The notes under the pieces are model-generated. The model made no database searches, was not told the DNA's origin, and saw only the letters and a program-made list of their open reading frames with translations. Position numbers and translations under genes: made by a program. 64,000 nt of DNA from Akkermansiaceae bacterium (GTDB lineage: Bacteria > Verrucomicrobiota > Verrucomicrobiia > Verrucomicrobiales > Akkermansiaceae). Where the stretch lies: contig CAIZNN010000212.1 in the NCBI GenBank assembly GCA_903934285.1, positions 62,001-126,000 on the forward strand. Direction: 5' to 3'. Each line of letters opens with the position of its first letter. Position 1 is the stretch's first letter. Shown piece after piece: positions 5,181 to 26,064 of the stretch.

Positions 5181-5257
5181 GGAGAATGGTGGTATTTTCA
5201 AAGCGGTTTCCGCCGACGCTTTAGAGGCGTGGGATGAAATACGGAACACCGCGGGCC

Positions 5258-5899
5258 TCAGCCATGGTGATGTGCCTGTTTGATGCGCGATGCCGGATCG
5301 CCGAGTGTGGTCGTGAGGCGTTCGCGCAGTTGCAGGCGGGCACGCAGCAGCCGCACCTTCACATTGGCCTCGCTCAAGCCGAGTGCGGTGGCGGTTTCAG
5401 TGACAGACAAGCCCTCCACGTCGCGCAGCAGGAAAACGATCCGGTGTTTCTCGTCCAACTGGGCGAGCGCCTCTTCAATCAAGCTGCGGGTCTCGTTCCT
5501 TGCCACCAATTCGCCCGGCGACTGGCTCCAATCGGCAATGTATTCCGGGTGGGGAATCGACTCGTCGCTTTCCGTGCTTTCGGTCGCCGCCTCCAAGGAA
5601 ACGGTGTCCAAGCCGTCGCGTTTGCGGATGACTTTGAGCGCCGCGTGAGTGGCAATCCGCAGCAGCCAGGTGGCAAAGCCCGCTTCGCCGCGAAACCCGT
5701 CCAGATGCTCCAGCGCGCTCAGGAACGTTTGTTGGGTCACATCCTCGGCATCCTGTTCGTGCCTCAGCATCCGCAGAGCGAGGGAATACACCCGCTTCTC
5801 GTACCGATTGGCCAAGCTCTCGAAGGCAAACAACTCCCCCGCTTTGGCGCGAACCACCAACTCGTCGTCTGCCGTCTCCGGGGCCATGAGATCCGTCAT
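5258..5899 (-). CDS. ECF RNA polymerase sigma factor
   Basis: 213 residues. Region 2 includes FESLANRYEKRVYSLALRML, RHEQDAEDVTQQTFL and FATWLLRIATHAALKVIRKR. Region 4 has EKHRIVFLLRDVEGLSVTE and the helix-turn-helix ATALGLSEANVKVRLLRARL. Length is typical of RpoE-like ECF sigmas. The zf-HC2 anti-sigma gene follows on the same strand. Probable targets are the four TGTAAC-N15-GGCTCA elements in this window. No such motif is seen before this gene itself, so it may be constitutively expressed. Confidence 0.92.
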   Translation of the reverse strand: MTDLMAPETADDELVVRAKAGELFAFESLANRYEKRVYSLALRMLRHEQDAEDVTQQTFLSALEHLDGFRGEAGFATWLLRIATHAALKVIRKRDGLDTVSLEAATESTESDESIPHPEYIADWSQSPGELVARNETRSLIEEALAQLDEKHRIVFLLRDVEGLSVTETATALGLSEANVKVRLLRARLQLRERLTTTLGDPASRIKQAHHHG

Positions 5900-6031
5900 A
5901 AAAATTGTCCGTCTGATGAACGATCCGTCATGCGCCCAATCCTATCCGAGGCACAGGTTCGGGTGGGCCGGTCGGGGGAGCCTTGCATGAAACCGCAGCC
6001 TCCGCAATCAAAGTTGCCGTTGGAGTTCGAC

Positions 6032-6106
6032 AACCATCATGCTGAAGGAATCCGGCGCACCCGGGAGGAAATGACACGGCGCCGACCGGGAATCTGGTCA
6101 CTCATC
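6032..6106 (+). pseudogene. fragment related to the esterase gene at 8000-9127
   Basis: About 75 bp, ending within the last codons of the response-regulator gene, resembles bases 8140-8215 of the downstream esterase gene. The readable part EGIRRTREEMTRRRPGIWSL matches GIRRTQEEMTRRRGGVWSV of the esterase E-set (CBM48-like) domain. A one-base difference before this segment shifts the frame, and nothing else of the gene is present. It looks like the scar of a duplicated or replaced esterase. Confidence 0.6.
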
Positions 6107-6479
6107 CTTCCAGGTGCCCTTCAATGACCCGGATGAGAATGTTCAAGTCCACCGGTTTAGCCAGGTACTCCTCATCGCCGATGTAGGCCTCGCTGCCGTG
6201 GGTTTCTTCATTCGATACAATGGCCGTGAGGAAGATGATCGGAATATCCTTCAGCAATGGGTCTTCCCGCAAGCGGGCCGCCACCGCGCCGCCATCCATC
6301 TCCGGCATCATAACGTCCAACAGAATCAGATCGGGCATGAACTCCCGGGCGGATTGAACGGCTACCAGGGCGTGATTTTCCTGGCGCACTTCGTAGGCAC
6401 CCGTTGCCACGAGATTACGTCTGACACCTCGTGTGATGCTGGCGTCGTCGTCGATGATGAGGATTCTATGCTTGGTCAT
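6102..6479 (-). CDS. single-domain response regulator
   Basis: 125 residues comprising only a receiver domain: acidic pocket IIDDD (8-12), phospho-acceptor D55 in LILLDVMMPEMDG, and the conserved lysine in YLAKPVD near 110. There is no output domain, so it probably works by protein interaction or phosphotransfer. Its ATG overlaps the stop of the histidine kinase gene by 4 nt (ATGA), making the two a coupled pair. Confidence 0.9.
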   Translation of the reverse strand: MTKHRILIIDDDASITRGVRRNLVATGAYEVRQENHALVAVQSAREFMPDLILLDVMMPEMDGGAVAARLREDPLLKDIPIIFLTAIVSNEETHGSEAYIGDEEYLAKPVDLNILIRVIEGHLEG

Positions 6480-7684
6480 GGATGTGGTTTCGGTTGCAGA
6501 TTAAATGTCAAAGTTGCGCGGGCCCCGCCTTCAGGACGATTTCCAAGTGTGACGCTGCCACCGTGAATCTGGATGATTCTGTGAACAATTGCCAATCCCA
6601 ACCCGGTGCCCTGTCCCGGAGGCTTGGTCGTATGGAACGGTTCGAAAATATTGGGTAACTGCTCCTGGGGAATACCGGGGCCGGTGTCCTCAACTTCAAG
6701 GATTACCTGGGGTTCGAGGACAATGCTTGTGTCGGTAGCCGCCTGCAACGAACTCCGCACCGTGAGTGTGCCGCCGTCTGACATGGCATGGACGGCGTTG
6801 GTGAACAGGTTGACCAACACGTGCTCCATGTGTGTATGGTCCAATGACAACATGGGCAAACCGGCTTGCAACTGTCGCACCACCTCGATTCGATGTTTGA
6901 GCAACTGGTGCCGAACCAGTCCGAGGGCATTCTCGACAATGGCGTTCAAATCTTCGGGAGACGGTTGCAGAGGGCGCGGCTTGGAGAAGTCCAGCATCAG
7001 GTTGATGATTTTGGTGCCTCGCAGGACCGCATGCTTCATGTCATGGAGCAAAGAGGCATCGTCCGCGTCGGAAATAGGGCGTTGGAGAAAGTAATCCACA
7101 CCCATGCCAAGGGTCATCAGCGGGTTCTTGACTTCGTGCGCAACTCCGGCGGCCATACGACCCACCGCTTCCATCTTGGCCGCTTCGATGAGTTGCATTT
7201 GCGTGCGCTGCAATTCGGTATTGGCCAACCGAAGTTTGCCCTCAGTCCGTCGGCGCACGGTCACTTCCGCTACCAATTTGGTGGTACGCCTGGCCACCGT
7301 CGCTTCGAGGTTTGCTTGGGTGGCTTTGAGGGTCGCCAACAAGGTGGCGACGACCACAAAGATGCCGCCCATCATCAGCGTGTTCCAGAAAACCACCCAT
7401 GGCTGAATGGTCGACCAGCGTTCCAGCCACTCCGCACCGAGCCAGGCTCCGGCACTGACCGTGGCGATGAACACGCCAACCCCACGACCTGCGAACCACG
7501 CGCACCAGCAAATCGGAACGAGGTAAAGCAATGTCACCGAAATCTCGATCCCTGTGAGGTAGTCGGAGACGGCAACCACCAGAACCATCCCCAAACTTGC
7601 TGCCAGTTTTCCCAACGGCAGCCGCGAATCACTCACTTTGTTCGTTAACGGTGGTGGATCGGTTGGATCAGGTTGTTGGTCCAT
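6476..7684 (-). CDS. membrane sensor histidine kinase
   Basis: 402 residues. Four or so hydrophobic segments in residues 25-115 form a membrane sensor without a large periplasmic loop, followed by a coiled coil (about 115-165). The H-box is [13 protein letters not shown] near residue 180. Then come an N-box region ([12 protein letters not shown]) and ATP-lid glycines ([17 protein letters not shown]). Family 4-like HisKA plus HATPase_c. Translationally coupled to the single-domain regulator downstream. The signal cannot be told from the sequence. Confidence 0.9.
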
Positions 7685-7999
7685 CTGATGCTTGGTTCTT
7701 GGCGGCGACTACGGGCCTCCGCAACAGGTGAGAAAGCGCCACCCCCCACGGAATATTTCTGTAGATCTACCCAATCATGCGTCAATCACCGGCCAAGGTT
7801 CCTGAAATTTGTCGGCCACTACTCCGAACTCGCGTATTCCGAACAACGAATGTTCAGATGCCGGGCGCGTCGCGTCATGCCAAAACAGGCAAAACAAACC
7901 GCCACCCAATCCCCATGGTCGGCCCCGGTTTGACCGGCACGCAACTGCAAAATCGGGGATTCGACTGGAAAACGCCGGAAATCGCGCTTGAGTACGCCC
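7685..7999. other. intergenic region between divergent kinase and esterase genes
   Basis: 315 bp between two divergent genes that must hold both promoters. No tRNA, repeat, clear terminator hairpin or TGTAAC motif was found. Short open frames here overlap each other on both strands and have no recognisable family features. Confidence 0.5.
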
Positions 8000-9127
8000 A
8001 TGTTTCATCGCCGCTTGCTTGCAATTTTGGTCGGGCTTTTTTCGACGCTGGCCCTAGCAGCCGATGATCATCCGCTCGAATCGCCGCAAATCGTGAATTA
8101 CCGCCGGGTGATCTTCCGGCTTAAAGCGCCAAAGGCAAAAACCGTCATGCTGAAGGGTATTCGCCGCACGCAGGAGGAAATGACCCGCAGGCGGGGCGGT
8201 GTCTGGTCGGTCACGATCGACCATCTGGATCCGGGCATCTACGAATACTGCTTCATCGTCGATGGGCAACCGATGATCGACCCGTCCAATCCTGAAGTGA
8301 GATCCGGGACGAATCCCGACCGGAGTTTGCTCGAAATTTCCACGGATACTCCTTTGTTTTACCAGTGGAAAAACGTCCCGCATGGAACCGTCCACATGCA
8401 CAGTTACTTTTCCGATTCGCTCCAACGTCGGCGACGGTTGCGTGTTTACACGCCGCCCGGCTATGAACTGAACGCAAATCACCGCTATCCGGCACTCTAT
8501 CTGTTTCATGGCACCGGTGACACGGAAGCCACTTGGACGGATTTCGGCCGCGCCCATCTCATTCTCGACAACCTCATCGCAGCGGGCAAAGCCGTTCCCA
8601 TGTTGTTAGTCATGCCCGACGGACACGCCGACCTCGATGAGGAAGAGGGCGACCACAAGGCCAACTTTCTCAAATTCGAGGCGGACCTGCTCGGTTCGGT
8701 GCTGCCATTGGTGGATGCCACCTATCGGACCATCGCAACTTCCGAGGGCAGGGCCATCAACGGGCTCTCGCTGGGTGGCATGCAAGCCTTGGAAATCGGC
8801 ATCAATCACCCCGACCTCTTCGCCTACATCGGCGGCATGAGCGCCTATGTCCCCATGGCGGATGACCTCTTGGCGAAAGGGTTTGCAAACAAGCACTTCA
8901 ATGACGAGGTCAAGTTGTTATGGATCTCAATCGGCAAGGATGACTTCCTGTTCAAGGATGCCGAGGCATTCCATTCCCTCCTGAACAAACACGGCATCCA
9001 CTCACAATGGACGGTCACCAAGGGCGAGCACGAATGGACGGTTTGGCGCGGATACCTGCGGGACTTCGCACCTTTGCTGTTCCGCCAGGACAATGTGGAG
9101 AATCCGCCCGTAAAAACGCCTAATTGA
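8000..9127 (+). CDS. secreted esterase, enterochelin-esterase/feruloyl-esterase (Fes/XynZ) type
   Basis: 375 residues with a signal peptide (MFHRRLLAILVGLFSTLALA) cleaved before ADDHP. Residues ~30-115 form an E-set/CBM48-like domain, followed by an alpha/beta-hydrolase of esterase family D. The nucleophile serine is in NGLSLGGMQA; a late His is in KGEHEWTVW and an acid in SIGKDDFL. The ATG at 8000 is preferred to an in-frame TTG at 7988. Probably hydrolyses esters on polysaccharide side chains (family inference). No operon partner is evident. A decayed fragment of a related gene lies at 6032-6106. Confidence 0.85.
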   Translation: MFHRRLLAILVGLFSTLALAADDHPLESPQIVNYRRVIFRLKAPKAKTVMLKGIRRTQEEMTRRRGGVWSVTIDHLDPGIYEYCFIVDGQPMIDPSNPEVRSGTNPDRSLLEISTDTPLFYQWKNVPHGTVHMHSYFSDSLQRRRRLRVYTPPGYELNANHRYPALYLFHGTGDTEATWTDFGRAHLILDNLIAAGKAVPMLLVMPDGHADLDEEEGDHKANFLKFEADLLGSVLPLVDATYRTIATSEGRAINGLSLGGMQALEIGINHPDLFAYIGGMSAYVPMADDLLAKGFANKHFNDEVKLLWISIGKDDFLFKDAEAFHSLLNKHGIHSQWTVTKGEHEWTVWRGYLRDFAPLLFRQDNVENPPVKTPN

Positions 9128-9228
9128 CGCTCTCCTATGAGTCACAGGATGGCATTGAACAAATAATGCAAAGCACGGATCAGAGACCGGGAGAATGTGG
9201 GGGAGTAGCGTTGATTCCTTAACCCGCC

Positions 9229-10215
<987 letters not shown>

Positions 10216-18873: not shown

Positions 18874-18903
18874 TGAGCCACGAGAGTCCGAAAAGTTACA
18901 AAT
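18874..18903 (-). promoter_or_regulatory. ECF-type promoter P4 (RND efflux unit)
   Basis: Minus-strand TGTAAC (18900-18895), 15 nt, GGCTCA (18879-18874), 17 nt before the adaptor ATG. The match to P1 extends outside the two boxes (GATTTGTAACTTT and CGTGGCTCA), although P1 is 17 kb away. This links the RND pump to the sigma-factor cluster at 1-6 kb. Confidence 0.72.
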
Positions 18904-18925
18904 CGCAGATCATTTTTGTGGGTTG

Positions 18926-19636
18926 TTATGGAATACGGCTTTGGATCATGCCGTCCTCGACATCCAGAATGCGGTCGAAGACATCAAGCGTGCGGTGATC
19001 GTGGGTGACAACGATGACACCGGCCTGACGCTCATGGGCGATCTTGGCGAAAAGTTCCATGACCTGCCGTCCTAACGGGCCGTCGAGGGCAGCGGTGGGT
19101 TCATCGGCGAGGATGAGGCTGGGGTTGTTGGCGAGGGCGCGGGCAACAGCGACGCGCTGTTGTTCGCCGCCGGAGAGGGCCACGGGCAAATTGTTGGCAC
19201 GCGGACCGATGTTCAGGTAATCAAGCAACTCCATGGCCCGCTTGCGGGCTGCCTTTGGCGCGGTATCGTTCACTTCGAGGGCGATCTGCACGTTTTCCAG
19301 GGCCGTTAGAAACGGAATCAGGTTCGCCTTCTGAAAGACGAAACCGAGGTGCTCCCGGCGGAAGGCGCGCAGGTCCACGAGCGCCCGCGGCCCATCCATC
19401 ACCGGTTTGCCACCGATGGAGATCCGGCCGGAAGTCGGTGGATTGATCAGCGCCATGGCGGTGAGAAGAGTGGATTTGCCGGAACCGCTGGGGCCAAACA
19501 TGCCAACGATCTCACCCGGGGCGATGCTGAGCGTGGCATCACGCATGGCGACGACCTCGGTGTGGCCGCTGCCGTAAACTTTGCGGAGGTGGGTGACCTC
19601 GACCGCGGGAATGATGGGATCTGTCGCTTGCTTCAT
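18926..19636 (-). CDS. ABC exporter ATPase (DevA/LolD/MacB type)
   Basis: 236 residues. Walker A GPSGSGKST at 48-56, Q-loop VFQKANLIPFLTALENVQ, signature LSGGEQQRVAVARAL, Walker B LILADEPTAALDG, and the H-loop in VVTHDHRT. The 'NLIPFLTALENVQIALE' stretch is close to cyanobacterial DevA. The start at 19636 overlaps the permease stop by 4 nt. Energises the DevC/MacB-like permease encoded just upstream. Confidence 0.93.
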   Translation of the reverse strand: MKQATDPIIPAVEVTHLRKVYGSGHTEVVAMRDATLSIAPGEIVGMFGPSGSGKSTLLTAMALINPPTSGRISIGGKPVMDGPRALVDLRAFRREHLGFVFQKANLIPFLTALENVQIALEVNDTAPKAARKRAMELLDYLNIGPRANNLPVALSGGEQQRVAVARALANNPSLILADEPTAALDGPLGRQVMELFAKIAHERQAGVIVVTHDHRTLDVFDRILDVEDGMIQSRIP

Positions 19637-20847
19637 GCGGAGAGGACGGTGTTGGGTTCCACGTTCATGGCTTTCCAGATGCCGAGCAGGCTGGCGAGGG
19701 TGGAGATGACGACGACGATCATCGCCAGGCTGACGAGATCGGAGGGTTCTATCAGCACAAGGCGCGGGAAATGCGGAAACGCATACTGGCCGATCCACCA
19801 CGCCAACAGGTAACCGAAGGCACCCATGAGCAGTGCCTGCTGGAGAATGAGGCCGCCGATGACCCCATTGCGGGCACCGATGAGCTTGAGCAACGCGATG
19901 TCGCGGATTTTGTCGAGCGTGAGCGTGTAGATGATGAGTGCGATGATGATGGTGGAAATGATGATGAGCAGGACGCGGAAAAGCCCGAGTTGGCGGCGTG
20001 CCTTGTCCACCATGCCGGCTAGCAGGAGGTCCTTTTGTTCCTGCGTGGAATAGACAGTGATGTCCGGCCAGGTGCCCAGCGTGCGGCGCACCGCGGCTTC
20101 ATCGGTACCGGGTTGCAGAGTGACAAGCACGGCGCTGACTTGCGGCGGGGCCAACGCGGGAATGCCGCCGGACAGCCCGGCGGCGCGCTCCAGCAACAAT
20201 GGCTGGAGTCTGCCGAGATCCATATTTTCCACCCTCGCCCGCCGGGCGGCACGTTCGAGGCGCGTCGCCTCTCCCGGTTGGTCGAACTGGATGGCCATCG
20301 CATCGCTGACGGTGAAAAAAGTGAGGCCATCGCCGCCGGTGCCGACCATACCGCGGGTGAGCCCCACGACTTGATAGGCATCCTTGCCCAAACGGATGCT
20401 ACTTCCGAGTGGCAGATTTAATGACTGGTCGGCGATCATTTCATAATGCGCCTGACGCAGCGCCCGCCCGGCGACCAGCGGTACCCAGTCGCCGTGGTCC
20501 TCGGGCCAGGAAAGCCCTTGCACGACCATGCGCAGCGGTTGCCCGTTGTGCTCCCGCTGGATGGTGTGGGAGACGAAGCGGCGTGCCTGTGCCACGCCGG
20601 GCACGGCCCGCACGCGGTCTTCGAGAGTGGCGGGGATGCGGGAAATCTCCGCGAAGGGGCCGCGGGTGCTGCCCTGCACGATCCACAGGTCGGCACCCAC
20701 GCGATCCACCAGCAGCGTGGCCTCGTGGATGAGTCCCCGATAGATGCCGCCCATCCCCATGACGATCATGAGCAACATTCCGATGCCCACGGTGGTGAAG
20801 ACAAAGCGGCCCGCGTTGTGGCGGATGTCGCGAACGGCTAGATTCAT
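19633..20847 (-). CDS. ABC exporter permease, FtsX/DevC-like
   Basis: 404 residues: an N-terminal TM (residues 17-35), a MacB-like periplasmic domain (about 40-270), then three C-terminal TMs (about 285-390) of the FtsX fold. No ATPase domain is fused, in line with a DevBCA rather than MacB arrangement. Coupled at both ends by ATGA overlaps, to the HlyD adaptor upstream and the ATPase downstream. Confidence 0.9.
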   Translation of the reverse strand: MNLAVRDIRHNAGRFVFTTVGIGMLLMIVMGMGGIYRGLIHEATLLVDRVGADLWIVQGSTRGPFAEISRIPATLEDRVRAVPGVAQARRFVSHTIQREHNGQPLRMVVQGLSWPEDHGDWVPLVAGRALRQAHYEMIADQSLNLPLGSSIRLGKDAYQVVGLTRGMVGTGGDGLTFFTVSDAMAIQFDQPGEATRLERAARRARVENMDLGRLQPLLLERAAGLSGGIPALAPPQVSAVLVTLQPGTDEAAVRRTLGTWPDITVYSTQEQKDLLLAGMVDKARRQLGLFRVLLIIISTIIIALIIYTLTLDKIRDIALLKLIGARNGVIGGLILQQALLMGAFGYLLAWWIGQYAFPHFPRLVLIEPSDLVSLAMIVVVISTLASLLGIWKAMNVEPNTVLSA

Positions 20848-21998
20848 GGCAGCTTGATGCGTTGACCTTCGGTAAGCGGGGATTTCTGCCTATCAGGTGC
20901 GCGGACGACTTGTTCGCCCGCCTTCAATCCCTTGATCACGGCGAGATGGTCCTTGCCGCGCAAACCGGGAGTGATCTCGCGCCACCGGGCCTTGCCACTC
21001 GCGTTCACAAGGACCCCGGCGCGACCATCCTTCCAAACGACAAAGGCCGATGGCAGCACCACAGCATCGGCTTGGCGGCCGGTCTCGATGAAAACCTCCG
21101 CCCGCTGGCCAATGGTCCAGTTTTTCGGCAGCTCAGCGGCATGCACATCCACCAGAAACTCGCGGGTCTCGCGGTCGGTCTCGCGCCCGAGTCGCGACAC
21201 CTTGCCCGGGTAGCCGTGTCCCGGCTCCGAGCGAAAAACGATGCGTGCGGGTTGCTCCACTGCCAGGCCAGGCATCGCTGTTTCATCCACCCACGCGCTG
21301 ATCCAGAGTTCATCGAGTGAAATCATCTGCATCAAGGACGCCCCCGGGACCAACATCTCACCGGGATCGCGATCCCGGCGAATGACGAGCCCGTCATAGG
21401 GAGCGTGAATTTCGGTGAAGGCGAGCTGATCCTTGCGAAACAGCAGGTTTTTCTCCGCCACCACGATCTGCCCTTCCGCTTCTGCGATGGCCGCGTTCGA
21501 ACGCGTGAGGTCGGCTTCGGCCACCCGCAAGGCTTCGGCAGCTTTGTCTGCGTCCGCCTGAGAAACCGCTCGTGTAGAGGTGAGTCCGGTCATGCGCTTG
21601 TGATCAAGTTGGGCCTGGGTCAACACCGCCTCGGAGCGGGCGAGGTCGGCACGCACGCGCTCCGCCGTTTGTTTCGCCGCCGCCAGCGTGGCTGCGGCAA
21701 TGGCGACTTGCTGTTTCGATTCCGCATCGTCGAGCCGGGCGAGAAGCTGCCCGGCTTTCACGGTGTCCCCCTGATCCACCAGCACCTCTAACAGCCGCTC
21801 CTGGATGCGGGCGCTCACCGTCGTTTTCACCCGTGCCTCCAGGGTGCCGGTGCCCATCACTTCGGCGACGATTTCACCACGGGCCACGGTGTAAGCGACC
21901 ACCGGCACCGGCGCGAACTTGAGCTTGTAAACGGCGAACCCGGCAACGGCGGTGACGATGAGCCAGGTGAGAAGGCGGCGGATGGTGGATCGTTTCAT
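20844..21998 (-). CDS. HlyD/DevB-family periplasmic adaptor of ABC exporter
   Basis: 384 residues. An N-terminal anchor (RRLLTWLIVTAVAGFAVYKL) is followed by lipoyl half VSARIQERLLEVLVDQGDTV, a long alpha-hairpin (residues ~95-185), the second lipoyl half IHAPYDGLVIRRDRDPGEML and beta-barrel domains. Adaptor for the DevCA-like ABC exporter. The first ~235 bp and the upstream region are duplicated at 23078-23365 at roughly 95% identity in the coding part. It heads the ABC-exporter run; the divergent Crp/Fnr gene and its palindrome lie 180-240 bp away. Confidence 0.92.
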   Translation of the reverse strand: MKRSTIRRLLTWLIVTAVAGFAVYKLKFAPVPVVAYTVARGEIVAEVMGTGTLEARVKTTVSARIQERLLEVLVDQGDTVKAGQLLARLDDAESKQQVAIAAATLAAAKQTAERVRADLARSEAVLTQAQLDHKRMTGLTSTRAVSQADADKAAEALRVAEADLTRSNAAIAEAEGQIVVAEKNLLFRKDQLAFTEIHAPYDGLVIRRDRDPGEMLVPGASLMQMISLDELWISAWVDETAMPGLAVEQPARIVFRSEPGHGYPGKVSRLGRETDRETREFLVDVHAAELPKNWTIGQRAEVFIETGRQADAVVLPSAFVVWKDGRAGVLVNASGKARWREITPGLRGKDHLAVIKGLKAGEQVVRAPDRQKSPLTEGQRIKLP

Positions 21999-22177
21999 GA
22001 GAATCGTTAATATTCAGATAGGTAGGACTGGTTATTCCGAGCAAGCGGTTGCCTTGGAGGTTTGTTCACATTGGAAACAGAATATAGTGGTTGGATCTTG
22101 GTGGTGAGATGTTTGGAATTCGCAGGGCGGCAGCGCCATTCGCACTGTAGGTTTACCGTGGCCGCACCCGCCACGCC

Positions 22178-22209
22178 TTGACGCAGGTCAAACTTTTGTA
22201 AGTTTGACC
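22178..22209. promoter_or_regulatory. Crp/Fnr-type operator and overlapping palindrome
   Basis: TTGAC-GCAG-GTCAA (22178-22191) is a perfect 5-4-5 inverted repeat of the FNR/DNR class. Overlapping it, GGTCAAACTT (22186-22195) and AAGTTTGACC (22200-22209) form a perfect 10-bp inverted repeat with a 4-nt spacer. The site is 30 nt before the regulator gene and upstream of the divergent hlyD gene, so it could serve autoregulation or control of the exporter. Confidence 0.7.
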
Positions 22210-22238
22210 GCGCCGCCGCCGTCCCATAGAAACCGCCC

Positions 22239-22961
22239 GTGACATCCTCCCGCACCCAGATTTGCCGCCACGCCGCCTATGCCCATACCCTGCGCGCCTG
22301 CCAACTCTTTAGCGGGCTGCCACCGGAAGCCTTGGACACCATCGCGCAACTCTGCGTACCGCGGCGACTGGCCAAGGGCGACTTCCTGTTTCATGAAGGC
22401 GCGCCCGCCGAGGGCTTTTACGTCGTCCAGAGCGGTGCGGTGAGCGTGCATCGGATCAGCGCGGCGGGCAAGGAGCTGGTCATTGCAGTGTTCCGGGCCG
22501 GCCAATCGTTCGCCGAGGGGGCGCTGGACAGCGCCGGCTGTTACCCCGCCAATGCCCGCGCAGTGGAGGCTGCGACGGTGTTGCTGGTGCCCAAGACCCC
22601 GTTTTTCGACCTGCTCCGCCGCAGCCCCGAGTTGGCGTTGCGCATGCTCGGTGCCATGAGCCTGCACCTGCGCGAGTTGGTCGGCCGCCTGGATGACCTC
22701 ACCCTCAAGGACGTGGAGTCGCGACTCGCCCACTGGCTGCTCAAGCAATGCCCGCGTCCTCTCACTGATGCTTCCGCCGAAATCCGTCTCGGTCGCACCA
22801 AGCGGGTGCTGGCAGGTGAGCTCGGCACCGTCAACGAAACCCTCTCCCGCACTCTGGCAAAATGGCGTAGCCTCGCCTTGGTCCGCGTCAAGGGCAGTGC
22901 CGTCACCGTAACCAACCCGCTGCAACTGGACGCCTTGCTGCGGCACAATCTCGGCGACTGA
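22239..22961 (+). CDS. Crp/Fnr-family transcriptional regulator
   Basis: 240 residues from a GTG start. Cyclic-nucleotide-like beta-roll about 20-135 (GDFLFHEGAPAEGFYVVQSG), dimerization helix about 125-160, and a winged helix with recognition helix TVNETLSRTLAKWR. The E200-x2-S203-R204 pattern is that of FNR-like proteins that read TTGAN half-sites, in agreement with the operator just upstream. No FNR four-cysteine N-terminal cluster is seen, so a [4Fe-4S] sensor is unlikely; DNR-like or another ligand is possible. The gene lies between two copies of the hlyD 5' end. Confidence 0.9.
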   Translation: MTSSRTQICRHAAYAHTLRACQLFSGLPPEALDTIAQLCVPRRLAKGDFLFHEGAPAEGFYVVQSGAVSVHRISAAGKELVIAVFRAGQSFAEGALDSAGCYPANARAVEAATVLLVPKTPFFDLLRRSPELALRMLGAMSLHLRELVGRLDDLTLKDVESRLAHWLLKQCPRPLTDASAEIRLGRTKRVLAGELGTVNETLSRTLAKWRSLALVRVKGSAVTVTNPLQLDALLRHNLGD

Positions 22962-23077
22962 GGCGGCCCCGTACATGAGTTGAACGGCAAGTTTCCAAGT
23001 GTCTTCCAGATGTGCCAGGACGGCGGCGACTTCCCGTCGAGAGAGAACAACGGGTGGGTGGCGGCGGCTGATGTGGT
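22962..23077 (-). pseudogene. fragment of integron-type tyrosine recombinase (IntI-like)
   Basis: The minus strand reads HPPVVLSRREVAAVLAHLED then TWKLAVQLMYGA, matching the region of integron integrases just before the first catalytic arginine ('LPVVLTREEV..L....G....A.LLYG.GLR'). It stops at YGA, where the sequence becomes the 3' end of the Crp/Fnr gene, and on its other side joins the truncated hlyD copy. Only about 35 codons remain; no catalytic residue is left. Confidence 0.6.
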
Positions 23078-23312
23078 TGTCCCCCTGATCCACCCGCACC
23101 TCTAACAGCCGCTCCTGGATGCGGGCGCTCACCGTCGTTTTCACCCGTGCCTCCAAGGTGCCGGCGCCCATGACTTCGGCGACGATTTCACCACGGGCCA
23201 CGGTGTATGCGACCACCGGCACCGGCGCGAACTTGAGCTTGTAAACGGCGAACCCGGCAACGGCGGCAACGATGAGCCAGGCGAGAAGGCGGCGGATGGT
23301 GGGTCGGTTCAT
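23078..23312 (-). pseudogene. truncated second copy of the hlyD/devB adaptor gene (5' end only)
   Basis: Encodes 78 residues (MNRPTIRRLLAWLIVAAVAG onward) differing from the full adaptor at only about six positions, then breaks off after VDQGD into the integrase fragment. The open frame continues to 22188 only because it runs antisense through the Crp/Fnr gene. Similarity also covers about 50 bp upstream of the ATG, weaker than in the coding part. A duplication scar, not a functional gene. Confidence 0.85.
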
Positions 23313-23369
23313 GAAGATTGTTGAAAATAAGTTAGATAGGCCAGGCTATTCCAAGCTAGCGGCGCGGAT

Positions 23370-23753
23370 TCACCTGCCTGAGAGCGCGTGAAATTCGTCG
23401 AGGCAACAGAAGATTTTCAGGACACAGGGGTTTTTCAGGGTATAGAAGATCTGGGTCCCACGGCGCTCGTTCATCACGAGTCCGACTTGGCGAAGCACTG
23501 AGAGGTGGTTGGATACCGTGGACATATCCAGACCAACCAGTGTCGTCAGTTCGGCCACGCACTTTTCTCCGTGGCCAAGCGCATCCACGATCAGCAGACG
23601 GTTCGGGTTGCCCAGCGCCTTGAACACTTCGGAGACCCAGTGGAAATCCGCCGGGATTTTGCCTTTCTTGGGGTTACAGGCGGCCTTCATTATTTGATAT
23701 TTGGCAAAGTATCCAACTTTGTCAAACGATTTTCCATTTTGGGCGTCCGGCAT
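23370..23753 (-). CDS. ArsR/SmtB-family transcriptional regulator
   Basis: 127 residues. The core is FHWVSEVFKALGNPNRLLIVDALGHGEKCVAELTTLVGLDMSTVSNHLSVLRQVGLVMNE (winged helix, recognition helix MSTVSNHLSVLR). Cysteines occur at GEKC, at NPC and as a CC pair near the C-terminus (IFCCLDEF), so a metal or thiol/persulfide sensor is possible. The start at 23753 has AAGGTGG upstream; an internal ATG at 23690 is an alternative. It precedes the truncated hlyD copy on the same strand, suggesting that it once headed an efflux operon. Confidence 0.87.
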   Translation of the reverse strand: MPDAQNGKSFDKVGYFAKYQIMKAACNPKKGKIPADFHWVSEVFKALGNPNRLLIVDALGHGEKCVAELTTLVGLDMSTVSNHLSVLRQVGLVMNERRGTQIFYTLKNPCVLKIFCCLDEFHALSGR

Positions 23754-23852
23754 TGTCCCACCTTGGACCGTCCTGATCCACGATTTACAAGGATTTGCGG
23801 GCTGGCGATTTTTTCTTTCGCATCGGGTCCTTTCGCTTGGTTGACTGCGGGC

Positions 23853-24293
23853 ATGCCTGAGTTGAAATCCACTGACAACACGCCGGTCCTGCTGTGGATG
23901 GAGGATTCCACCGAAGAAACGGTGATCAAGCGGATGATCCAATTGTTGGCCGGCAGGGCGGAAGTACGGGATTTGCGGGAACTGGAGCGGGCGGTGCTGG
24001 AACGCCAGAAGCTCCAGCCACCGTTGTTAGGCAATGGGGTGGCGCTGCCGCATGCGAGGACGACCGCGGTCACCGAGATCGTCCTGGCGATTGGCCGCTG
24101 CCGGGAACCGGTGCCGTTTGGTCCCGATCAGGTGCCGATCCGCCTGGTTTTCCTGTATGGCGTTCCGACCCAATGTATTGGCGGGTATTTGGCGGCGGTG
24201 GCGCGCTTGACCCGCTTGCTGAAAACCCCGGGCACGCTGGATGCCTTGCTGACGGCACCGGATGAGGCGAACTTCCGCCAACACTTGCGGTAA
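23853..24293 (+). CDS. PTS EIIA (fructose/nitrogen type)-like protein
   Basis: 146 residues with the EIIA phosphohistidine motif NGVALPHARTTAV (His near residue 69) and the strand IRLVFLYGVPTQ. Likely a phosphorylatable regulatory domain such as PtsN or the cytoplasmic domain attached to some ClC/antiporter systems. Lies 4 nt before the ClC channel gene start and is probably translated with it, pointing to regulation of the transporter (inference). Confidence 0.82.
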   Translation: MPELKSTDNTPVLLWMEDSTEETVIKRMIQLLAGRAEVRDLRELERAVLERQKLQPPLLGNGVALPHARTTAVTEIVLAIGRCREPVPFGPDQVPIRLVFLYGVPTQCIGGYLAAVARLTRLLKTPGTLDALLTAPDEANFRQHLR

Positions 24294-24297
24294 ACGG

Positions 24298-26064
24298 ATG
24301 AATGTACCGGCGAACATGAACCCGGAATTGAGTGCGGGAGCCAGACGCCTGGTCCGTTTGCGAATCTGGCTGGGCGAGCGGATTTCGGGCAACGAAATGC
24401 GCGCCACCCTGTTGTGGGCGGCATTGGCAGGGTTGATCGGAGCGTGGACATCCATTGGTTTCAAGGAAGCGACGGAGTGGTTGCACTCGCTTTTCACGGG
24501 GCATTATTCCGGGTATGTGGCGAGCTTTGCCGCCATGCCATGGTGGCGGAGGATTTTGGTGCCGACGGTGGGTGGCTTGCTGGCCGGGCTGACGCTCTAC
24601 TTTGGCAGCAGGATCAAAAGGCGACGAAGCACCACGGATTACATGGAAGCCGTGGTGGTGGGTGATGGCAAACTTTCGGTGAGGAGGAGTTTGGTTAAAT
24701 GTTCGTCGGCTTGGTTCTCCGCAGCCACCGGCGCGTCCATCGGGCGGGAAGGGCCATTGGTGTTGCTGTCCGCGCTGGCAACTTCCATGCTTGGCCGATG
24801 GTTGAAATTCCCGCTGGCCCGACAGCGGCAGATGGTCGCGTGCGGCGCGGCGGCGGGCATTGCCAGCGCTTACAACGCGCCGGTCGCCGGGGCGTTTTTC
24901 GTCGCCGAAATCGTGCTCGGTTCGCTGGCGATGGATGCATTCGGGCCGCTGGTGGTTTCCTCGGTGGTGGCAACCTTGGTGACCCGGGCGCACTTCGGCG
25001 CGGAGGCGATGTACACCGCGCCGGTTTTCACACTCCATCAAAATTGGGAATTGCTGCCCTATATGTTGTTAGGTTTGCTGTGCGGCGCGGCGGCACCGTT
25101 GTTCCTCGGGTTCCTCAAATGGAGCGAGATCGCTTTTGGCAAACTCAAACTGCCGGATTGGGCACGTTTGGCACTCGGCGGTTTGATCGTCGGCCTGTTA
25201 GCAGTGGCGCATCCGGAGGTGACGGGCAATGGCCGTATCCTGGTTTTCAGCATCCTTCATTATCCAGGAACGTGGCAGGCCCTGGCGATGATTTTCTTAT
25301 TCAAGATCGTCGCCACCGGGGCGACCTTCGGCTCCGGTGCGGTGGGTGGCGTATTCACGCCGACCTTATACACGGGAGCGGCGCTCGGCTATCTCTTTGG
25401 AGTGGCTGCGGCCGCATTGTTTCCGAGTTGGGGGCTTGAACCAGGTGCTTTCGGTCTGGTTGGGATGGGGGCGTTTCTCGCGGCGGCCACGGGTGCGCCG
25501 GTGATGGCGATCATCATGCTCTTCGAGTTGACGCTCAATTATCAAATCCTGATGCCGGTGATGCTTGCCAGCGTGATGGGTTATTACACCTGCCGATCTC
25601 TAACATCACGTTCGCTGTATAAGGACGCGCTGGCTCGGAAAGGCGCTGCAGCCGTGGCACAGCATCTCGCCACCCTGAAAATCGGCGATCTGATGCACGA
25701 GGATCCAGGTACGATTTCCCCGCTGGCTCCCTTTGGGGAAATTGTTCGCCAATTCATGCACAGCACCCAGGACTTTCTCCATGTGGTCGATGACGGGCGC
25801 TTTCTTGGCGCTATTTCTCTGCACGACATCAAATCCTATCTGGATCGTCCGGAGCTGGAAACGCTGGTGATTGCCCAGGACGTGATGCGGTACGATCATC
25901 CCACGCTTCTTCCTGAGATGTCGATGACCAAAGCGCTGGATTTCTTTGCCAGGGTGGGAACACAGCGGCTGCCAGTCACCGATGCAAGTTCCCGGTTTCT
26001 TGGAGTGGTTACCGAGACCGATGTGTTGCTGTTCCTCGCGGGCAAGCCCCGGAGCAATGCCTGA
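24298..26064 (+). CDS. ClC chloride channel/transporter with tandem CBS domains
   Basis: 588 residues. About residues 30-440 form the ClC membrane domain: GASIGREGPLVLLSALATS holds the gating-glutamate motif GREGP; GSGAVGGVFTPTLYTGAALG is the second selectivity segment. Residues ~460-585 are two CBS domains (LMHEDPGTISPLAPFGEIV; VMRYDHPTLLPEMSMTKAL). The presence of the gate Glu fits either a channel or an H+/Cl- exchanger. The ATG at 24298 is chosen as it clears the EIIA stop; a second Met lies five codons on (24316). Confidence 0.93.
   Translation: MNVPANMNPELSAGARRLVRLRIWLGERISGNEMRATLLWAALAGLIGAWTSIGFKEATEWLHSLFTGHYSGYVASFAAMPWWRRILVPTVGGLLAGLTLYFGSRIKRRRSTTDYMEAVVVGDGKLSVRRSLVKCSSAWFSAATGASIGREGPLVLLSALATSMLGRWLKFPLARQRQMVACGAAAGIASAYNAPVAGAFFVAEIVLGSLAMDAFGPLVVSSVVATLVTRAHFGAEAMYTAPVFTLHQNWELLPYMLLGLLCGAAAPLFLGFLKWSEIAFGKLKLPDWARLALGGLIVGLLAVAHPEVTGNGRILVFSILHYPGTWQALAMIFLFKIVATGATFGSGAVGGVFTPTLYTGAALGYLFGVAAAALFPSWGLEPGAFGLVGMGAFLAAATGAPVMAIIMLFELTLNYQILMPVMLASVMGYYTCRSLTSRSLYKDALARKGAAAVAQHLATLKIGDLMHEDPGTISPLAPFGEIVRQFMHSTQDFLHVVDDGRFLGAISLHDIKSYLDRPELETLVIAQDVMRYDHPTLLPEMSMTKALDFFARVGTQRLPVTDASSRFLGVVTETDVLLFLAGKPRSNA

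Follow-up and report, generated by a model that had tools for sequence, protein, structure and literature searches.

Probable patchwork insertion of a Crp/Fnr regulator gene between arsR and hlyD of an exporter operon in an Akkermansiaceae bacterium

In a 64,000-nucleotide stretch of DNA from an Akkermansiaceae bacterium (the window; the source genome has 4.8 Mb in 282 contigs), an intact Crp/Fnr regulator gene lies between two direct copies of the beginning of hlyD, and an arsR gene lies just behind the second copy. How did a regulator gene come to stand inside a duplicated piece of an exporter operon, and which regulator does the exporter now answer to? The exporter genes, the repeat copies, and arsR are the following.

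18926..19675, minus strand: ABC ATPase of the hlyD operon, DevA/LolD type (Pfam ABC_tran 9.7e-33; DevA 2e-63)
19633..20847, minus strand: MacB/FtsX-type permease of the hlyD operon (Pfam MacB_PCD and FtsX)
20844..21998, minus strand: hlyD, full-length periplasmic adaptor, 384 aa (Pfam HlyD_3 2e-17, HlyD_D23; TIGR01730 RND_mfp 5.6e-48; NF008606 MacA 3.5e-29)
21764..22048, minus strand: repeat copy 1, hlyD codons 1-78 and about 50 bp of the former arsR-hlyD spacer
23078..23362, minus strand: repeat copy 2, hlyD stub (codons 1-78) and spacer, joined to arsR
23370..23699, minus strand: ArsR/SmtB-family regulator (Pfam HTH_5 9.5e-13; NF033788 8.7e-26; counterpart L069 9071-9397)

The preliminary description had placed direct repeats at about 21764-22060 and 23078-23365, and they are real. 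They measure 285 nt (21764-22048 and 23078-23362), have a spacing of 1314, and are 92% identical without gaps (BLAST E value 2.5e-113). Over the first 79 codons of hlyD, 11 of 237 bases differ (95.4% identity), which agrees with the figure of about 95% in the preliminary description, and the first 235 bases of the full-length hlyD are part of copy 1. The second copy, said to encode 78 residues, does match 78 to 79 codons of hlyD, but the frame runs on past them and is open for 374 codons in all (22188-23312, minus strand), through an integrase scrap and the antisense strand of crp. We considered a fusion protein of these three parts and rejected it as a product of chance, because the equivalent antisense register holds four stops in G006 and two in G029, two genomes of the same genus. 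Beyond arsR, at 23826-26064, a PTS EIIA-type gene and a channel gene, which we take to be of the ClC type, run in the opposite direction.

The closest relative with the locus, G057, has arsR, hlyD, the permease gene, and the ATPase gene uninterrupted on one strand, with arsR at the head. Window positions 18901-22048 correspond to 5914-9060 of the G057 locus (L069; 89.6% identity), and positions 23078-23648 correspond to 8776-9346 (85%). Together the two matches form one continuous stretch of L069, in which 8776-9060 is the counterpart of both repeat copies. Therefore, the window holds a patch with a net gain of 1,314 bp. A comparison with relatives carrying an uninterrupted arsR-hlyD operon had been proposed for this locus, and G057 provides it. 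The arrangement was absent from the other genomes when 73 genomes of the genus, 195 relatives, and 386 genomes of the order were searched (overlapping sets, with the source genome included in the counts), and none of the relatives searched had it with both hlyD copies full length. The closest of 11 named hlyD loci is that of Akkermansiaceae bacterium Loclat_bin-20621 (CAISTY010000135), at 90% on the protein level.

The promoter had also been thought to be duplicated, and this is not borne out. The doubled upstream part consists of about 50 of the 57 bp of the arsR-hlyD spacer in an arsR-first operon. Because this spacer lies inside the operon, the old promoter was probably upstream of arsR and outside the duplication.

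The same neighborhood takes other forms in relatives. In G057 the channel gene is missing, the EIIA gene is matched only in part, and only fragments are left of an RND operon downstream of the ABC ATPase gene (L069 5278-5915). In G047 (L077, contig C202, 8064-9493), the same arsR stands directly before an RND adaptor gene, without the hlyD-ABC module; therefore, the module may be a later arrival between arsR and the RND operon. In G192 and G154 (L061 and L062), the hlyD relatives match only to about residue 316 to 318 and have an internal TGA, with the permease gene behind.

Read from left to right, the DNA between the repeat copies holds an hcp remnant, a divergent promoter region, the intact Crp/Fnr gene, and a scrap of an integron integrase gene.

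22043..22085, minus strand: hcp remnant, about 14-15 codons of hydroxylamine reductase (tblastn 87.5% over 16 codons)
22086..22238, no strand: former hcp-crp divergent promoter region (alignment with G006 and G029)
22178..22191, no strand: operator-like TTGACGCAGGTCAA, a perfect inverted repeat (alignment with G006 and G029; HcpR consensus motif)
22239..22961, plus strand: Crp/Fnr regulator, 240 aa, HcpR/DNR-like, intact (Pfam cNMP_binding PF00027 2.6e-21; HTH_Crp_2 PF13545 1.2e-11)
22964..23070, minus strand: integron integrase scrap, about 35 codons, in frame with the hlyD stub (TIGR02249 8.6e-5; 79% aa identity to intI of G006:C75)

The Crp/Fnr gene, operator, and integrase fragment of the preliminary description were thus all recovered (by Pfam, as a perfect inverted repeat, and by TIGR02249, respectively). 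Its reading of the locus as insertion of a regulator gene with partial duplication also agrees with the relatives: the G057 segment is uninterrupted, and the Crp/Fnr unit stands elsewhere, beside hcp, in G006 and G029. Window positions 22041-22963 match this standalone unit at 86% in G006 and 84% in G029, where the Crp/Fnr gene is divergent from hcp (hydroxylamine reductase, NF003658 3.2e-241). The source genome has one hcp gene, which lies elsewhere and is 47% identical. Between the window and G006, crp has a dN of 0.065 and a dS of 0.445, which indicates purifying selection and a gene that has been maintained.

The Crp/Fnr protein has both a cNMP-binding-like sensor domain and a Crp helix-turn-helix. 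No HcpR or DNR model was among its NCBIfam matches, of which the best were FtrB (6.6e-27) and Fnr, below the cut-off. The site at 22178 is a perfect TTGACnnnnGTCAA, that is, TTGAC-N4-GTCAA, and is the sole match to TTGA[CT]N4[AG]TCAA within the 64 kb. It has kept its form in G006 and G029, and it is followed by a palindrome, AAACTT-TTGT-AAGTTT. PMC1274295 gives TTGACnnnnGTCAA as the HcpR consensus for two cyanobacteria, where the divergent partners are hcp and norB.

Related Crp proteins were found in 18 of 195 genomes at an E value of 1e-40, which gives 19 loci with that of the window. A site of the TTGA[CT]N4[AG]TCAA type lies within about 125 bp upstream of crp in 16 of these 19, the window included. 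At the 18 other loci, the divergent neighbor is flavohemoglobin in six (by NCBIfam or Pfam domains), a NorC-like cytochrome c in four, hcp in two, copper nitrite reductase in one, a heme-type radical SAM protein in one, and something else or ambiguous in four. The cytochrome, which we take to resemble NorC, was assigned by Pfam Cytochrom_C at L113 to L115 and by resemblance at L112. The linkage to hcp, nor, nir, or hmp genes that marks HcpR and DNR regulators is thus present in 13 of the 18 relatives' loci, and the window itself has the hcp remnant only. Together, the divergent neighbors of the NO type and the HcpR consensus site suggest, as far as sequence can tell, that the Crp/Fnr regulator is most likely NO-responsive.

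The integrase scrap is about 105 bp long and covers positions 95-128 of the 315 in the TIGR02249 profile. It is 79% identical over 34 residues to the intI product of G006 contig C75 and matches intI genes of G006, G029, G015, G017, and others. The source genome has one integron integrase above the family cut-off, which is intact (C134); it did not appear as a source of the scrap among the tblastn matches listed, from a database that included C134. A complete intI was not found at the site, where about 35 codons are all that stands. We rejected a mobile element or cassette, since the patch has no repeat ends and intI is present only as a scrap. There is no inverted pair at the patch ends of the kind expected of a composite transposon or insertion sequence, and the duplication is 285 bp long. 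A plasmid origin was also rejected: the hlyD DNA had no plasmid match, and the Crp protein had no near match in plasmids, the best among the matches listed being about 36 to 37% identical.

Where did the second hlyD start come from, and when? The stub DNA is 92% identical to the adjacent hlyD and 83% identical to the hlyD of a second operon in the same genome, on contig C31. At six sites, both window copies carry a derived base relative to G057 and C31. These two results indicate that the hlyD start was duplicated locally, once the lineage had split from G057. Between the copies (79 codons), dN is 0.042 and dS is 0.066. Against G057, the full hlyD has a dS of 0.28 for those 79 codons and of 0.46 along its entire length, with a dN/dS of about 0.12. 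The duplication is therefore more recent than the split from G057. Of the 11 differences between the copies, 10 could be polarized: eight fall on the stub and two on the full copy, a split that is weak in numbers, and one was unresolved. The stub changes are spread 3, 2, and 3 over the codon positions, as expected of a dead gene, again in small numbers. The hlyD stub is decaying or dead.

The second operon (G000:C31:9693-12783, L003) is a complete hlyD-permease-ATPase set, 84 to 95% identical in amino acids, followed by a sigma-factor-like gene. Window positions 5254-5899, a long way from the exporter operon described above, hold DNA 81% similar to that sigma-factor-like gene.

What does the patch mean for the exporter? 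Its operon has been cut off from arsR, and what now precedes hlyD is the old hcp promoter region together with the Crp/Fnr gene and its site. In the proposed sequence of events, arsR would now be followed by a dead hlyD stub, and the full exporter operon, left without its arsR-side promoter, would be transcribed from the old hcp promoter under the Crp/Fnr protein. Control would thereby have passed from ArsR to an NO or nitrosative type. We put this rewiring forward tentatively, on the layout of genes and sites. A quite possible outcome of the same history is a neutral scar, with the Crp/Fnr protein serving other targets or only itself and not the exporter. A scan for promoters and terminators found nothing, and no sigma-70-like promoter was found in 21900-23900, although the promoters of this phylum need not fit that model. 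The hcp remnant has ATA where relatives have the ATG start codon, and the site lies about 48 bp from crp versus about 180 bp from the start of hlyD; these points favor the neutral scar. Against it, the conservation of crp and the site contrasts with the decay of the hlyD stub, and the full hlyD is intact, with the low dN/dS given above, despite the loss of its arsR-side start.

A possible role of the exporter can be read in part from its neighbors. In G025 the order is arsR-thioredoxin-CcdA-like-ArsP-hlyD, in L119 it is arsR-ArsP-hlyD, and in G151 it is arsR-MIP channel-ArsA-hlyD. Verrucomicrobial ars clusters at L072, L119, and L127 have ArsP or ArsA with an HlyD/MacB-type ABC exporter behind it. 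Many other hlyD loci, such as L073, L080, L120, L122, and C31, have no arsR in the stretch examined. A search of 16 loci for ArsP and thioredoxin gave ArsP in L119 (70%), a weak ArsP match in L050 (27%), and neither protein in the other loci. Because arsR and arsenic-type genes head the module in some relatives, an ArsR-controlled, metalloid-linked exporter is likely in the window too, but the link is not general.

That a patch was inserted into an arsR-hlyD operon, with the start of hlyD duplicated, is in our judgment very probable. The route can be sought in the three junctions.

22041..22048, no strand: junction J1, spacer to hcp, 7-8 bp microhomology (GCAAGCGG), from the G057 spacer, the G006/G029 hcp, and the window lined up
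22962..22966, no strand: junction J2, crp 3' end to integrase scrap, about 3-4 bp common
23070..23078, no strand: junction J3, integrase scrap to hlyD, 0-3 bp common

The process would have started from the G057 state, with arsR, hlyD, permease, and ATPase genes on one strand. A patch of about 1 kb would have entered this operon, made up of about 15 hcp codons, the hcp-crp promoter region, the whole of crp, and about 105 bp of intI, and the first 285 to 290 bp of hlyD and most of the spacer would have ended up on both sides of it. The simplest single-event route, to which we give an even chance, would be that replication or repair synthesis switched templates at short homologies. Synthesis would have left hlyD at codon 78, passed through the integrase scrap and then crp and the hcp start, and reached the arsR-hlyD spacer; re-entry behind the point of departure would have produced a direct repeat around foreign scraps. 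One such path yields exactly the observed order, orientation, and repeat. At J1, CAAGCGG is common to the G057 spacer and hcp, a match of 7 bp that the G before it may extend to 8. Against this explanation, J2 and J3 have only 0 to 4 bases in common, near the level of chance, and the donors, a full intI of this kind and an hcp-crp pair, are absent from the present genome. On balance, we think it fairly probable that the locus arose by patchwork insertion, plausibly through microhomology-mediated template switching, and that the exporter was thereby placed downstream of an NO-type regulator and promoter.

The main rival is single-crossover integration of a prepared donor. In this Campbell-type or flank-assisted scenario, a donor from a related cell, with the hlyD start joined to hcp'-crp-intI', recombines with the chromosomal hlyD; the shared segment is doubled around the insert, and the 8% difference between the copies is a strain difference and not decay. 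Such an integration leaves a direct repeat around the insert and fits both the divergence of the copies and the lack of a donor in the genome. However, the donor would have had to capture the hlyD start in an earlier, separate step. No such donor was found in 195 relatives, the plasmid matches of the Crp protein reach about 36 to 37% at best among those listed, and the two window copies are sisters relative to G057 and C31. We consider this route unlikely. An assembly error that joined pieces of different strains or species is highly improbable. The genome is a draft of 282 contigs, probably a metagenome assembly, and the patch combines pieces of three loci, but the junctions stand at the repeat edges with 8 common bases or fewer, too short for an ordinary k-mer mis-join; moreover, the integrase scrap has only about 105 bp, the hcp remnant has decayed, and the copies have diverged. 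Recombination between two related efflux operons, one headed by arsR, which had been offered earlier and for which the C31 operon (84% aa identity) might have been the partner, can practically be set aside in view of the stub's closeness to the adjacent hlyD, the six bases derived in both window copies, and a search around the C31 operon that found neither arsR nor crp.

The scar is real, but it is an ordinary kind of genome scar. Patchwork insertion would gain its interest from the rewiring. It is quite possible, and we state it with reserve, that a single event brought an arsenic-type exporter operon under the promoter and regulator of an NO-stress gene and left the old operon start behind as a decaying stub. 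If so, G057 and this genome form a clean before-and-after pair for a one-step change of the signal that an operon obeys. Promoter, operator, and regulator would have moved together, in a natural and datable case in which the remnants of both old operons can still be read. The locus further draws attention to ars clusters of Verrucomicrobiota in which arsR stands at the head and an HlyD/MacB-type ABC exporter is included.

Three known systems bear comparison. The excerpted text of PMC3161906 describes repeated template switching with inserts and microhomology in Escherichia coli. The window resembles this microhomology-mediated break-induced replication (MMBIR) of starving cells, as given there, in its short junction homology, its inserts, and a duplication on switching back to a replicated stretch; it differs in that the event is read from an old scar and two of three junctions are almost without common bases. 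As in the NO-responsive HcpR/DNR/NnrR group of Crp/Fnr regulators, in the part of PMC1274295 that treats them, the Crp/Fnr gene is divergent from hcp in two congeners and has the consensus site, and in other relatives it is divergent from flavohemoglobin, NorC-like, or copper nitrite reductase genes. Unlike that group, the window has lost hcp except for about 15 codons, and an efflux operon is the neighbor on that side. Finally, among verrucomicrobial ars clusters with arsR at the head and an HlyD/ABC exporter, the G057 locus has arsR directly before hlyD, whereas in the window the patch has severed arsR from the exporter.
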